Below, piece by piece: positions 1 through 5,363 of a stretch of DNA of 64,000 nt. The number at the start of each line of letters is the position of its first letter. Position 1 is the stretch's first letter. The notes beneath the pieces were generated by a model. It was given only the letters and a program-made list of their open reading frames with translations, had not been told where the DNA came from and did no database searches. The stretch lies in assembly GCF_012102745.1 (NCBI RefSeq), contig NZ_JAAVSY010000003.1, positions 1 to 64,000 on the forward strand, in the 5' to 3' direction. The translations under genes and the position numbers were made by a program. The stretch is from Haematospirillum sp. H4485. Lineage in GTDB: Bacteria; Pseudomonadota; Alphaproteobacteria; Rhodospirillales; Rhodospirillaceae.

Positions 1-82
1 GTGGCTGATCACCCGTGCGGAGCATTCATTATCGCGCAGCGGGTATACCACAACGCTTACATGTGAGTCGGTTTCAGACTGA
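1..82 (+). CDS. Phage late control protein gpD-like, C-terminal end (partial)
   Basis: Reading from base 2 gives 26 codons ending in TGA at 80-82. The peptide begins WLITRAEHSLSRSGYTTTL and resembles the end of P2-type tail protein gpD, in which a Trp-x-Val/Ile-Thr-x-x-x-His segment is followed by Gly-Phe/Tyr-Thr-Thr. It converges on the integrase stop codon, which it overlaps by nine bases. The rest of the gene lies outside the window. The call rests on a short motif and on the neighbouring integrase, so it is tentative. Confidence 0.4.
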   Translation, partial: WLITRAEHSLSRSGYTTTLTCESVSD

Positions 83-1357
83 TTGCGCGAGAGCGATAAG
101 GCGCTCCAGATCCCGCCGCGAAAGTCGCTTGACCAAATCTTCGACCTGCTCTGTAGGTGTCGTGCATCCAGTCAGATAGTCCGCCCAGTCCTGCATCAAC
201 GCTGTGCGTTTTTCGATCATGTCTCCGCGCCGGTAGGCGGCTTCAACCTTGTTCTTGATTGTGTGTGCGAGCGCCATTTCTGCGACAGCGCTCGGATGCT
301 GGGTTGCCTCGGCAGCCCAGTCCCGGAAACTCGAACGGAATCCGTGCACTGTAAGATGGCCATAGCCCAGGCGGCGCATCATCATCAACATAGACATGTT
401 TGACAGCGGCTTGTTCTGGCGTTGGCCCGGAAAGAGGTACTGGGAGCGGCGATAGTCCTTGAGGGTCTCTAGAAGCGAGACAGTCTGCCGTGCCAATGGA
501 ACCCGATGAAGCCGCCCCATTTTCATCCGTGCTGGCGGGATCGACCAGACGCGGGCTTTCATGTCAATCTCGCTCCAGGTCGCTTGCAAAACCTCATTGG
601 TGCGGCACCCGGTCAAGATACAAAACTGGAGTGCAAGCGCAGACATTGAGGTGTCTTCGCTGTGCAGCGACATAAAGAAGTCCGGGAGATCTTTCCAAGG
701 CATCGCAGCGAAATGGGCCTTGCTGGTTGCAGGGCGCCGCGGCAGAAGATGATCAAGGTGGCCGCGCATCCGGGCCGGGTTCTCGCCGGACCGCCAGCCC
801 CGCGCACAGGCGTAATCCAGAATTCTTTCGATCCGTCCCCGGACCCGACGGGCTGTTTCAGGCTTTGATAACCAGATGGGGGTCAAGATCGCCAAGACAT
901 CGTCAGTTGTGACCTGATCAAGGGCTACTTTACCAATGCGCTTCCTGACGTACGAGGCCAGGGTATTGACCCACTGCTGCTTGTGCGTGGCATTCTTCCA
1001 CGCGCCCATGTGAGCGTCGAGGTATTCTTTGGCGGCGTCATTGAAGGTTTTTGGCGCCGTGGGGGTGGCTTCATCAAGCGGGGCATCGCTCGTGCTGACC
1101 TGCCGGGCTCGCACCCTCAAGGGGTCGATCCCGTCGGCAAGGAGCTTCTTCGCCTCATTCTTGGCAAGCCGCGCGTCCCGCAAACTTACTGCGTCCGCCG
1201 ATCCCAGTGACATATCCCGCCGTACGCCGTTGATCTGGTACCGGAATACCCACATCTTCCGGCCAGTCGGGCCTACCTTGAGCCACAGGCCGTCACCATC
1301 ACCGTACTTGCCCGGAGCCGATATTGACTTTACTTGAGAGATTAAAAGTTTCGCCAT
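74..1357 (-). CDS. Tyrosine recombinase, P4-type phage/island integrase
   Basis: This 427-residue protein integrates and excises a mobile element by site-specific recombination. The N-terminus (AKLLISQVKSI, then GKYGDGDGLWLKV) is the DUF4102 arm-binding domain of P4-type integrases. A core-binding domain and the catalytic domain follow. The catalytic residues are visible: Arg in GCRTNEVL, His-x-x-Arg in HGFRSSFR, a second His in LAHTIKNK, and the nucleophile Tyr in AAYRRGD. The start is the ATG at 1357, which gives the usual beginning for the family; an upstream in-frame start at 1387 would add ten atypical residues. A tandem 12-bp repeat lies just upstream of the start. The gene looks intact. 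Confidence 0.93.
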   Translation of the reverse strand: MAKLLISQVKSISAPGKYGDGDGLWLKVGPTGRKMWVFRYQINGVRRDMSLGSADAVSLRDARLAKNEAKKLLADGIDPLRVRARQVSTSDAPLDEATPTAPKTFNDAAKEYLDAHMGAWKNATHKQQWVNTLASYVRKRIGKVALDQVTTDDVLAILTPIWLSKPETARRVRGRIERILDYACARGWRSGENPARMRGHLDHLLPRRPATSKAHFAAMPWKDLPDFFMSLHSEDTSMSALALQFCILTGCRTNEVLQATWSEIDMKARVWSIPPARMKMGRLHRVPLARQTVSLLETLKDYRRSQYLFPGQRQNKPLSNMSMLMMMRRLGYGHLTVHGFRSSFRDWAAEATQHPSAVAEMALAHTIKNKVEAAYRRGDMIEKRTALMQDWADYLTGCTTPTEQVEDLVKRLSRRDLERLIALAQSV

Positions 1358-1368
1358 GCGTCCAAGCC

Positions 1369-1392
1369 GTCCCACACTTTGTCCCACACTTT
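1369..1392 (-). repeat. Tandem 12-bp direct repeat in integrase leader
   Basis: GTCCCACACTTT occurs twice back to back on the plus strand, 12 bases upstream of the integrase start. It could bind integrase or a repressor. A related sequence occurs at 37792-37812, just downstream of tRNA-Ser. Confidence 0.6.
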
Positions 1393-1580: not shown

Positions 1581-1689
1581 CGCCGAAGAGAAAAAGCGTT
1601 GTCGCACGCTTCGTTGAAACAAGCCAAGCTAGCCCCTCCCAGCGCCGCGCTGAGCGTAGCTACCACCAGAGAGTGACCATTCCTGAGCC

Positions 1690-1809
1690 ACTCCCCCAGG
1701 AAGATGCAAGCTTGAACCTCATTGCGGTACCGCTGGCCAGAAGCTTTTTGAACAGCGGTGCTATGTCTTTTTAGGAATCAACAAGCAAGAGCCGACTGAT
1801 CTCTTGCAT
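1690..1809 (-). pseudogene. Decayed N-terminal remnant of a fourth tandem LuxR-type gene
   Basis: From the ATG at 1809 (leftward), translation gives MQEISRLLLVDS, a stop (TAA), then KDIAPLFKKLLASGTAMRF. This aligns residue for residue with the first 30 or so residues of the intact neighbour at 1847-2563 (MEEIKRFEIVDSYKDVSPLFKKLL), with the stop replacing a Tyr codon at position 13. Similarity fades after about residue 40, near base 1690, close to the prophage attachment region. A GGGGGGAG ribosome-binding site is still present before the ATG. The remnant lies 37 bases downstream of the next intact copy and in the same direction, so the array once had at least four tandem members. It cannot make a functional protein. 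Confidence 0.8.
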
Positions 1810-1846
1810 GATGACGCTCCCCCCGGAGTGGCTCCATCCCCCGTTC

Positions 1847-2563
1847 TTATTTTGATGGTACAGACGTGATATCCATGGAAATTCCAATCATTTTTGATGA
1901 GGGTTCAGGTATCTTGCACGGGACATGGGACCCCAGTCTGTCCATCACATCGCGACGGCAGGCGGCAACGTATCGCTCTGTGACCCCAAGGTAGCTGGCG
2001 ATAGCATCATCAGCAAAGCCTGACAGGGCCATTTGCAGAATCCTGGTTTCGGTTTCTTCCCGGCCATTGGCCCCGGGGCGTCGTTCAGCCCGCATGTAGT
2101 CCTGGAGGAAACGAAAAGCCATGCCTTCCAGGTCAGATTGTTGGTCGTCGCGTATTGCCATTCCCAAGCTTGTAGCAAAGCCGACTGTATAGAGTCGGCT
2201 CCCCACATGGATAGGAATAACCATGCCATCTCGTAGGCCAAAGGTCGCTGCCTCATCAAAGAGGTCTTTGTTCATGGCTCTAACGGCATCATATCTTACA
2301 GTGATATCACTGGCGGGTGCTACATAAGCAAATGGATCAACGTCTTGATACGATTGATCTACGTATCGTTGAACGAAGTCAGCTGGCCATGAAGCGGCAA
2401 TGCATGGACAACCAGTATCCTTTATGACGTCCTCATCTTCTTCCCACCCGAAGAATGCCGCAAACTCGAACCCCATCGCAGTGCTGTTTGCCAGAAGCTT
2501 TTTGAACAGAGGACTGACATCTTTGTAGGAATCCACAATTTCAAACCGCTTGATCTCTTCCAT
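1847..2563 (-). CDS. LuxR-family solo regulator, tandem copy 1
   Basis: This 238-residue protein has an N-terminal autoinducer-binding fold (about residues 20-155) and a C-terminal LuxR-type helix-turn-helix (about 170-212, with ILQMALSG and SYLGVTERYVAAC). In family members such a domain binds acyl-homoserine lactones or other small molecules and controls transcription. Of the six usual pocket positions, Tyr67, Asp76, Pro77 and Gly113 are kept; the position of TraR Trp57 is Phe63 and that of Trp85 is Tyr91. No luxI synthase lies nearby, so it is a solo. An AGGAGA ribosome-binding site precedes the ATG. It is closely similar to the next two genes, showing recent tandem duplication. The ligand is unknown. 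Confidence 0.85.
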   Translation of the reverse strand: MEEIKRFEIVDSYKDVSPLFKKLLANSTAMGFEFAAFFGWEEDEDVIKDTGCPCIAASWPADFVQRYVDQSYQDVDPFAYVAPASDITVRYDAVRAMNKDLFDEAATFGLRDGMVIPIHVGSRLYTVGFATSLGMAIRDDQQSDLEGMAFRFLQDYMRAERRPGANGREETETRILQMALSGFADDAIASYLGVTERYVAACRRDVMDRLGSHVPCKIPEPSSKMIGISMDITSVPSK

Positions 2564-2671
2564 AACGACGGGTCTCCTCCCTCATTCCCCTGAACAATGC
2601 ACCCGGAGATTCCGCTGAATATGCGTGCAGCATACGTTCATGCGGTAAAGCAGCCAGGGTTCCGGTAAACT

Positions 2672-3385
2672 TTACTGTCTCGATGATACCGATGTGATAC
2701 CCATCGAAATTCCAACCATTTTCGATGATGGCCCGTGTACTTCATACGGTACGCGGGTGCCTAGTTTTCCCATGGCATCTTGACGGCAGGCGGCAACGTA
2801 CCGTTCCGTTACGCCAAGGGTTCTCGCTATGATATCGTTACCCAAGCCGGAGAGTGCCATCTGTAGAATTCTGGTTTCGATTTCTTCCCGGCCGTTGGCG
2901 CCGGGGCGTCGTTCAGCCCGCATGTAGTCCTGCAGAAAACGGAACGCCATACCTTCCATGGTTGACTGTTCGTCTTCGCGAATTTTGACATCGCGACTGG
3001 TTATAAAGCTGACGGAATAAAGCCGGTTTCCCACATGTATGGGAACAACCATGCCTTCCCGCAGCCCGAACGCGAACAGTTCATTGAAGAACTCGTTGTT
3101 CATATTCCGGACGGCATTATACTTGACGGTCGTGTCGCTGGCCGGAATCACGTAAGTGAACGGATCAACGTCATGATAGCCATGATCTACATACCGCTGG
3201 ACATAGTTGCCGGGTGTCGACGCCGCAATGCACGGGCAGCCGAGGTCTTCTATGACATCGTCTTCCCATCCAAAGAATGCCGCAAATTCAAACCCCATCG
3301 CAGTGCTGTTTGCCAGAAGGTTCTTGAACAGGGGTGCAATATCCTTGTGGGAGTCCACAATTTCGAATCGCTTGATATCTTCCAT
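2672..3385 (-). CDS. LuxR-family solo regulator, tandem copy 2
   Basis: This 237-residue regulator has the same layout as its neighbours: ligand-binding domain, a short linker containing GREE, and a LuxR-type helix-turn-helix ending RQDAMGKLG. The start is the ATG at 3385; a TTG three codons upstream is less likely. Pocket residues Tyr65, Asp74 and Pro75 are kept, while the Trp57 equivalent is Tyr61 and the Trp85 equivalent is Tyr89. It is the copy most similar to copy 1, including nearly identical C-terminal tails (SSKMVGIS versus SSKMIGIS). A 108-base spacer separates the two genes, enough for a separate promoter. Ligand and targets are unknown. Confidence 0.85.
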   Translation of the reverse strand: MEDIKRFEIVDSHKDIAPLFKNLLANSTAMGFEFAAFFGWEDDVIEDLGCPCIAASTPGNYVQRYVDHGYHDVDPFTYVIPASDTTVKYNAVRNMNNEFFNELFAFGLREGMVVPIHVGNRLYSVSFITSRDVKIREDEQSTMEGMAFRFLQDYMRAERRPGANGREEIETRILQMALSGLGNDIIARTLGVTERYVAACRQDAMGKLGTRVPYEVHGPSSKMVGISMGITSVSSRQ

Positions 3386-3531
3386 AACAACCAAATCCTT
3401 CTGCTTGCCCCTGAATCAGCGCGTCAAGAGCAACGCGCAAAAATTAAAAATTAACGAAACCACTTTGCGAGAACGTACGAGCAAATCCGGGGTATTCGTC
3501 CCTGTTCATTCGAAAGATAGCCTCCTGACTA

Positions 3532-4251
3532 TTATTGCTGCTGTGATGTTGTTGGCACCCTGTAGAGGGGGATGCTGATCATTCTGGACGACCGATCAGC
3601 CTCTCCGCAGATCGTACGACGACTTGCATTACCCAAGGTGTTCCGAAGGCTGGCCGAAACGTAACGTTCTTCTATGCCAAGAAAATCAGCAATCGCTTCT
3701 TGGGTGTACCCGGCTATGGCCATTGGGAGTATCTTGGCATCCGTTTCTTCCCGGTCACCAATCCCTGCTTGTCGCTCTGCTCGCATGTAATCCTGCAGGA
3801 AGCGAAAGGCCATGCTTTCCAAGGCCGACTGTTTGTCGCGGCAAACAGCGATACCCTGACTGGTGCTGAAGCTGATCAGATAAACCCGTTTTCCAACATG
3901 CAGGGGAATGGTCACGCCATCCCGCAGACCAAATGCAGCAGCTTCTCCAAAAAGATCGCAATTCATCCCCTTGATGGAGTCCCAATTTATAGCGCCATCA
4001 CTTGCGGGTGCCAGATAAACCAGTGGGTCAATTTCGTGATAGGCATGCTCCACATAACGCCGGGCAAACTCATCTGGCCATGAAGCCGCAAAGCACGAGC
4101 AACCAGAATGTCGTACAGCAGCCTCGTCCCCTTCCATGCCCCAGAAAGATATGAATTCGAACCCCATACCGGCACTATCTACCAAGAGGTCATTGAACAA
4201 GGGAGCAATGCTTTTTGATCCTGCAACTTCAAGTCGCTTGACCTTTTCCAT
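3532..4251 (-). CDS. LuxR-family solo regulator, tandem copy 3
   Basis: This 239-residue regulator is the first gene of the leftward array. It has the autoinducer-binding domain (FEFISFWG to FRFLQDYMRAE) and a C-terminal helix-turn-helix (IADFLGIEERYVSASL). Pocket residues are Phe62 in place of Trp57, Tyr66, Asp75, Pro76, Trp90 (kept, unlike copies 1 and 2) and Gly112. It is therefore intermediate between the canonical divergent gene at 4662 and the two more altered copies downstream. Its upstream region is the AT-rich divergent spacer at 4252-4661. No synthase gene is present, so the signal may be imported or may not be a homoserine lactone. Confidence 0.85.
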   Translation of the reverse strand: MEKVKRLEVAGSKSIAPLFNDLLVDSAGMGFEFISFWGMEGDEAAVRHSGCSCFAASWPDEFARRYVEHAYHEIDPLVYLAPASDGAINWDSIKGMNCDLFGEAAAFGLRDGVTIPLHVGKRVYLISFSTSQGIAVCRDKQSALESMAFRFLQDYMRAERQAGIGDREETDAKILPMAIAGYTQEAIADFLGIEERYVSASLRNTLGNASRRTICGEADRSSRMISIPLYRVPTTSQQQ

Positions 4252-4661
4252 AGCAACAGGCCCTTTCCTCTCGCTCTAACCCAGCTATACCCGGAAGAAG
4301 ACATTCCACGGTTGTCATGTCTAGCGTATTTTCAACAGGGAAGATACCACGTAACCGAACAAATTCCAGAAAAATTTCCAGAATACAAACATAGCGTGTT
4401 AAATGAATGCGTACATTCAATGGTGTATTTGATTTTTATGGTTGCGCGTCTGTATGCGTCTTTCTTGTGGGGCAAGACGTTCAATTTTCTTATGGGAGCC
4501 GGGTGTCTGTACTTAACCTTGTTGAGCACAGAAGTCGCCTGTGTGCGGCGAAATTTTATCTGGAAAATGTCAATTATGGTTGATACAGTGCCATCGCTGC
4601 ATCGTAAGGATGTGCAGTGTGGCGATACTGTGTCGCTCCGGCTGATGGCGGGGGATTGGTA
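4252..4661. promoter_or_regulatory. AT-rich divergent promoter region between LuxR genes
   Basis: This 410-base spacer separates the leftward LuxR array from the rightward LuxR gene. It is visibly richer in A and T than its surroundings and must hold both promoters. I looked for a 20-bp lux-box palindrome and saw no convincing one. Short open frames in it have no recognisable content. Confidence 0.5.
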
Positions 4662-5363
4662 ATGAACGAAGCAAAAAAAGTTTCAGGCGTAAGGTCGCCG
4701 GTTGGTCGTGATGGAGGCGAGCTGTTTACAGATCTCTGTTCCAAGGCCGGGGATTTGGGTTTCGAGTTTGTCTCGTTTCTGGGCGTTACCGGTGATGACG
4801 AGGCATCAAGAGATATAGGGTATCCCTTTATTGCGGCATCCTGCCCGCCCGGGTGGGTGGATCTTTACAAGGAACGCGCCTATCACAAGGTTGATCCGGC
4901 CCTTTTGCTTGCCCCCGTTGCCATGGGGACGATGAGCTGGGGTGATCTGGATGGTGCAAAGATGGACTTCTTCCGGGAGGCGTCTTCGCATGGCCTGCGA
5001 ACTGGTCTTTCCATCCCTGTGCAGCTGCCGTTGCGGACGTATCTGTTGAACTTTGCCACGGCAAGGAAGGAGGCGATCAGCATTCCCGTCCGGTCCGAGC
5101 TGGAGGGGCTGGCGTTCATGTTCGTCCAGAACTGGTTGCGTGCTTGCCCACAGCAGGAGCCGTCGCCTGCCTTCAGTGAAAAGACTCTCAAAATTTTGCG
5201 TATGTGTTTGCTGGGGTTTGACTGCAGCTCCATCGCTACATCTCTTGGCATGACGGCCCACGGTATCTCGTGGCACCTGAAAGATGCCCGCAGGAAGTTG
5301 CGTTGCCAGACAACCATGCAGGCCTGTGGCAGGGCCTTGTTCCTGGGTCTTATAAAAGTTTAG
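4662..5363 (+). CDS. LuxR-family solo regulator with canonical ligand pocket
   Basis: This 233-residue protein has the autoinducer-binding domain plus a LuxR-type helix-turn-helix (ILRMCLLGFDCSSIATSLGM). Unlike its three leftward relatives it keeps the full usual set: Trp65, Tyr69, Asp78, Pro79, Trp93 and Gly115. The start is the ATG at 4662, preceded by GGCGGGGGA; an upstream in-frame ATG at 4617 lacks a ribosome-binding site. It is divergent from the array, which suggests shared or mutual control across the spacer. It is probably the ancestral or least altered member. No luxI is in the window. Confidence 0.85.
   Translation: MNEAKKVSGVRSPVGRDGGELFTDLCSKAGDLGFEFVSFLGVTGDDEASRDIGYPFIAASCPPGWVDLYKERAYHKVDPALLLAPVAMGTMSWGDLDGAKMDFFREASSHGLRTGLSIPVQLPLRTYLLNFATARKEAISIPVRSELEGLAFMFVQNWLRACPQQEPSPAFSEKTLKILRMCLLGFDCSSIATSLGMTAHGISWHLKDARRKLRCQTTMQACGRALFLGLIKV

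Follow-up and report, generated by a model that had tools for sequence, protein, structure and literature searches.

A duplicated LuxR-type receptor array in Haematospirillum, with probable blockwise exchange of sensor segments and loss of the signal synthase

Quorum-sensing research has yet to explain how a receptor gains a new specificity while its regulatory output is maintained, and this question is raised by a group of LuxR-type genes in Haematospirillum sp. H4485. H4485 is a small freshwater bacterium, and its genus is placed in Novispirillaceae. The H4485 genome (2.38 Mb, 29 contigs, 100% complete) carries these genes on contig C23, whose positions 1–64000 form the window, the whole stretch of 64,000 nucleotides that was analysed. 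Our comparison partner was the closest genome of the set and the sole other member of the genus in it, Haematospirillum sp. H1815 (G011; loci L038 and L039), and all interspecies comparisons rest on these two species only. The proteins of neighbouring genes were mostly 91–99% identical between them and the DNA flanking the second LuxR locus was 91–94% identical, indicating that H4485 and H1815 are close but separate species. The dS values of neighbouring genes, 0.10–0.29, provided the baseline of divergence. Each of the two genomes contains six genes with an Autoind_bind domain, the maximum in the family; the other members have at most four, despite genomes of up to 5.5 Mb.

A sequence-only reading of the window had described three tandem LuxR-type genes, a decayed fourth and a divergent fifth. 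This arrangement was confirmed by the open reading frames, the Pfam matches and the alignment of the remnant (Table 1, in which the divergent gene is copy 4). The frames of copies 1 to 4 are all open, and their Autoind_bind (PF03472) scores were 52.7, 47.2, 54.9, and 59 bits, respectively (cut-off 23). The AlphaFold model of copy 1 exhibited the LuxR ligand-binding fold and matched the ligand-binding domains of LasR, RhlR, and CepR2 with Z scores of 16–17 over about 145 residues (rmsd about 2.5). The decayed fourth copy has a stop at codon 13, and its remnant is present in H4485 and H1815 alike. Between the two species, copy 2 is 97% and copy 4 is 94% identical. The integrase gene that adjoins the array at the start of the contig is probably not part of it, and no counterpart was found beside the H1815 array, where a type I restriction-like gene set accompanies a tRNA-Ser(gga). 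The matching tRNA-Ser of H4485 lies on contig C27. An integrase/tRNA-Ser island as the driver of the array is suggestive only.

Table 1. Features of the LuxR array and its neighbour in H4485 (positions in the window)
Feature	Coordinates	Strand	Basis
Integrase (tyrosine recombinase), array neighbour	74..1387	-	Pfam Phage_integrase, Arm-DNA-bind_3
Remnant of the decayed fourth copy (N-terminal, codons 1 to ~40)	1680..1809 (about)	-	Repeat family D2; alignment with copy 1 and the H1815 remnant
Copy 1, LuxR-type receptor, pocket F57/Y85	1847..2563	-	ORF, Pfam, alignment, AlphaFold
Replaced segment of copy 1 (ligand pocket, residues ~38-137)	2152..2451	-	MaxChi, pS
Copy 2, LuxR-type receptor, pocket Y57/Y85	2672..3385	-	ORF, Pfam, alignment
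Copy 3, LuxR-type receptor, pocket F57/W85	3532..4251	-	ORF, Pfam, alignment, tree
Array leader upstream of copy 3, homologous to the R1 leader	4327..4400	-	Alignment of four upstream regions
Copy 4, divergent canonical LuxR, pocket W57/W85, R2 relative	4662..5363	+	ORF, Pfam, alignment, tree

Pocket residues were numbered by alignment to TraR, the alignment being anchored on the invariant Y61, D70, P71, and G113. The motifs obtained were FYDPYG in copy 1, YYDPYG in copy 2, FYDPWG in copy 3, and WYDPWG in copy 4. The earlier assignment of Phe/Tyr, Tyr/Tyr, Phe/Trp, and Trp/Trp to positions 57 and 85, with Tyr61, Asp70, and Pro71 kept, was thus borne out, and Gly113 is also retained in the four proteins. 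Copies 1–3 lack the complete set of the nine near-invariant LuxR residues (W57, Y61, D70, P71, W85, G113, E178, L182, G188), and copy 4 has the six of the pocket. The equivalents of E178, L182, and G188 are retained in copies 1 and 2; that of E178 depends on the alignment in copies 3 and 4. The nine residues are a strong tendency and not an absolute criterion, known solos departing from them too. Among the 37 other LuxRs of the family, W57 was present in 36 and W85 in 36, and none (0/37) was devoid of both. The W/W pocket also occurs in R1 and R2, the two LuxRs of the second locus, and in the outgroup (L009/L085), and this distribution suggests that it is the probable ancestral state. The W57M plus Y61W signature of the PAB/OryR type was not recovered, copies 1–3 having Phe or Tyr at position 57 and keeping Tyr61. 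An altered ligand is likely, and the best candidates for a ligand that is not a standard AHL would be copies 1 and 2, devoid of both tryptophans. In the PluR/PauR receptors of Photorhabdus, the six-residue motif is required but does not suffice (PMC4414361), so that changes at positions 57 and 85 alone are no proof of a new ligand.

A tree of 49 LuxRs placed the 12 Haematospirillum proteins in a single clade (support 100/99), revealing true lineage-specific duplicates in line with the duplication proposed earlier. The same tree served to check whether the copies could be unrelated, and they grouped as duplicates: copies 1–3 clustered with R1 (100/99), copy 1 with copy 2 (99/99), and copy 4 with R2 (97/53). 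H1815 carries the same array, which predates the separation of the two species. Copy 3 was not the sister of the H1815 gene located at the same place. Alignment of four upstream regions revealed homology between the copy 3 and R1 leaders in both species, probably corresponding to a shared promoter/operator. We could not find a lux-box dyad common to the upstream regions of copies 1, 2, and 3; only this leader homology stood out. A near-perfect long dyad with the core TTTTTGTGTTGAGAACACACAAAAA is present upstream of R1 in both species (L037:8980-9020 and L039:6920-6965) and might be an operator or a regulatory hairpin. Outside the genus, we obtained only weak Rhizobiales/Azospirillum matches (at most 31% identity) in the plasmid collection and none in viral contigs, and the search of the genome collection returned the H1815 loci only.

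At positions 57 and 85, copies 1–4 of the H1815 array read F/F, Y/Y, F/F, and W/W. The sequence-only reading had interpreted the H4485 residues as a stepwise gradient produced by duplication and drift. Duplication was upheld by the tree; ordered drift was not, since two of the four “steps” differ in H1815, and the copy 1 pocket and the entire copy 3 differ blockwise, with saturated synonymous divergence next to nearly identical DNA. What looked like a gradient in H4485 is thus one state of a reshuffled set and not an ordered series.

The block structure was most apparent in copy 1. Between H4485 and H1815, residues ~37–138 displayed a saturated pS of 0.74 with a pN of 0.26; dS was 0.09 for residues 139–238 and 0.07 for copy 2. 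At the nucleotide level, positions 2152–2451 differed from H1815 copy 1 by 37%, whereas the 3′ side differed by 2% and the 5′ side by 11%. The right edge of this tract, at 2152, had a MaxChi value of 89 against a permutation maximum of 24 (0 of 2000 permutations), and a second breakpoint at about 2451 marked its left edge. The DNA up- and downstream of copy 1 was again 82–98% identical in 50-base steps, indicating that the tract has two ends; the first codons of the gene, as well as the DNA downstream as far as the remnant, are similar again between the species. The exchanged tract spans the ligand pocket and stops just before the dimer helix (helix 139–158 of the model), leaving the DNA-binding half in place. 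With its synonymous sites saturated, the pocket cannot owe this pattern to amino acid selection alone. As judged from these alignments, the pocket difference in copy 1 and the overall difference of copy 3 are probably block replacements by recombination and not the result of point drift. We also considered assembly chimerism for copy 1 and rejected it: both species have uninterrupted frames, an assembler would not merge paralogues this dissimilar, and the source copy is absent.

The alternative according to which duplication was followed by drift of the pocket residues toward a new ligand through point mutations would agree with the grouping of the copies as duplicates and with pocket substitutions that are unusual in the family. 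However, the synonymous sites of the copy 1 pocket are saturated whereas dS is only 0.09 in the next 100 codons, and such a sharp-edged synonymous block cannot be produced by drift or by positive selection on amino acids. This scenario is contradicted for copy 1 and may apply to the older differences between copies 1, 2, and 3; we regard it as improbable overall.

In the pairs compared among the LuxRs of both genomes, we did not identify an intact donor of the copy 1 pocket (best nucleotide identity about 70%). Within a genome, copies 1 and 2 share 80–90% nucleotide identity near their start and around codons 139–185, and 58–73% in the pocket; the two more similar regions could be homology arms. 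Separate pocket and DNA-binding trees, both built from few columns, were submitted to AU tests, and on the pocket columns alone the sisterhood of copy 1 and H1815 copy 1 was not rejected (p-AU 0.30). The pocket subtree was star-like, which would also fit hidden paralogy. In that case, the two species would have retained different members of a larger ancestral set, and copy 1 would be a fusion of two copies formed in one lineage, with no foreign donor. The remnant present in both species testifies to at least a fourth ancestral copy, and the fact that the copy 3 genes located at the same place are not sisters points in the same direction. A single unequal crossover would nevertheless have replaced the DNA upstream of copy 1 as well, and this DNA is conserved. 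Thus, a two-ended, conversion-like exchange is needed even under hidden paralogy, which we consider a rather unlikely account.

Other members of the two receptor sets have also changed unevenly. Copy 3 and the H1815 gene at the same place are only 49% identical and differ throughout. R1 exhibited the reverse of the copy 1 pattern between species, its pocket half having diverged less than its DNA-binding half. In copy 4, divergence between species is about fivefold higher over the first ~50 codons (4662-4817) than over the remainder of the gene, forming a smaller second mosaic.

The GerE (PF00196) scores were 18.5, 22.8, 15.3, and 23.3 bits for copies 1 to 4, with a cut-off of 23.5. The AlphaFold model of copy 1 contained three helices of the HTH with good confidence (pLDDT about 80) and a disordered segment of low confidence at residues 211–238; four HTH helices were predicted for copy 4, the fourth one (219–228) with low confidence. 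Judging from these scores and models, the LuxR DNA-binding domain of copies 1–3 seems to be without its fourth helix. The DNA-binding half of copy 1 accumulated 1 nonsynonymous versus 6 synonymous changes between the two species, a signature of purifying selection (p = 1e-3) suggesting that this half is probably in use. Purifying selection was also detected in copy 2 (p = 6e-4) and copy 4 (p = 6e-10).

It has been reported that TrlR antagonises TraR by dimerising with it, and a similar role was proposed for CerN in Cereibacter (PMC11655674). Copies 1–3 could likewise be anti-activators that dimerise with R1, R2, or copy 4 and block or retune their binding to DNA. These two antagonists, the GerE scores of copies 1–3 below the Pfam cut-off, and the seeming absence of the canonical fourth helix speak in favor of such a role. 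Yet, three HTH helices are confidently predicted in copy 1, the E178, L182, and G188 equivalents persist in copies 1 and 2, copy 4 also falls just below the GerE cut-off, and purifying selection on the DNA-binding half of copy 1 would be less needed in a pure decoy. We find this role doubtful, although it is compatible with the origin of the array that we favor.

The absence of a signal synthase noted in the window extended to the entire H4485 genome, in which neither the Autoind_synth HMM nor a search with the H1815 LuxI protein detected luxI; as a positive control, the HMM recovered luxI in 30 of 73 family genomes. The H4485 array, with no cognate luxI adjoining, thus consists of LuxR solos. 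In H1815, an intact luxI lies between R1 and R2 (L039:7741-8460; PF00765, E 1.7e-19), i.e., at the second locus, apart from the array. At the counterpart locus of H4485 (L037), only about 128 bases separate R2 from R1, and the search for a luxI remnant between them gave only short, chance-level matches (E about 1). In the outgroup G018, a W/W luxR adjoins a luxI whose product is 32% identical to the H1815 LuxI, indicating that the presence of luxI is probably ancestral. The simpler reading, drawn from two species, is that luxI was probably deleted in the H4485 lineage. The R1 and R2 proteins are only 62–63% identical between species (L039:6956-9205 versus L037:7357-8911) against the much higher identity of the flanking DNA, suggesting that the whole signalling locus diverged or was replaced. 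An XRE-like HTH gene near R2 (L037:6171-6743 and L039:9821-10297) has a dS of 0.58, two to five times that of its neighbours, so that the variable block may reach beyond the LuxR genes.

One could suppose that the array consists of decaying leftovers of a quorum-sensing system after the loss of its synthase, in line with the absence of luxI and the presence of one pseudogene among the copies. The remaining frames are however open, purifying selection acts on those amenable to testing, and H1815 retains the array together with its luxI. We therefore consider such decay very improbable.

Substitutions in the pocket motif of tandem LuxR solos have been described before (PMC4338825, PMC4235431); what would be new here is the natural exchange of a pocket. 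The PluR/PauR and PAS4-LuxR clusters of Photorhabdus are likewise groups of luxR genes without luxI, and the changes in their WYDPWG motif have been attributed to duplication and new ligands (PMC4235431, PMC4414361). The clustered sensors are however PAS4 in Photorhabdus and Autoind_bind in Haematospirillum, in which the changes are confined to the two tryptophans, Pro71 and Gly113 being retained, and exchange of a pocket block is observed between sister species. The tandem solos of Rhizobiales and Burkholderiales are also adjacent and probably duplicated, with varied substitutions at invariant pocket residues, but they comprise two genes, compared to three plus a remnant and a divergent further one in Haematospirillum; the passages of this survey available to us describe no within-gene recombination (PMC4338825). 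The Cer system of Cereibacter sphaeroides, also an alphaproteobacterium, resembles H1815 in having six LuxR homologues and one LuxI, and resembles the array in that one LuxR, CerN, has a reduced DNA-binding part; CerN lacks the entire HTH whereas copies 1–3 keep three predicted helices and seem devoid of the canonical end only (PMC11655674). Finally, the PAB solos OryR, XccR, and PsoR are also solo receptors with a changed W57, but they combine W57M with Y61W (PMC10134790), whereas Haematospirillum keeps Tyr61 and has Phe or Tyr in place of W57 and W85. In the open-licence literature, covered mostly through titles and abstracts, we found no description of natural pocket exchange inside a solo array, and the titles and abstracts naming the genus contained nothing about quorum sensing.

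A duplicated array with block exchange of sensor segments, accompanied by probable loss of the synthase, is thus well supported. The explanation that we favor, and to which we give moderate confidence, is a lineage-specific receptor array in which recombination swaps pockets and leaves the output domain unchanged. Copies 1–3 would derive from the quorum-sensing receptor R1 or from an ancestor of R1; copy 4 would be akin to R2 of the LuxR–LuxI–LuxR locus proper to the genus. Homologous recombination among members of the array, or with the copies of other strains, would then swap the pocket, with boundaries falling in conserved blocks, the N-terminus on one side and the dimer helix plus HTH on the other. 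Such swaps would couple new sensor specificities to a constant output domain; in experimental domain swaps, the signal specificity of LuxR hybrids indeed followed their N-terminal domain (PMC4471428). Since H4485 has no AHL synthase, all six of its receptors would sense the signals of other organisms or non-AHL signals of its own. More tentatively, the array might be a natural pocket-exchange cassette in which recombination keeps replacing pockets under a constant output, so that specificity turns over between sister species at a rate unmatched elsewhere in the gene and the synthase can be lost while the receptors stay. Two close species that differ by one clean pocket exchange in an otherwise near-identical gene provide a natural chimera that can be compared directly, and the H1815/H4485 pair illustrates the states before and after the probable loss of a synthase, an ordinary LuxR/LuxI system becoming a set of solos.
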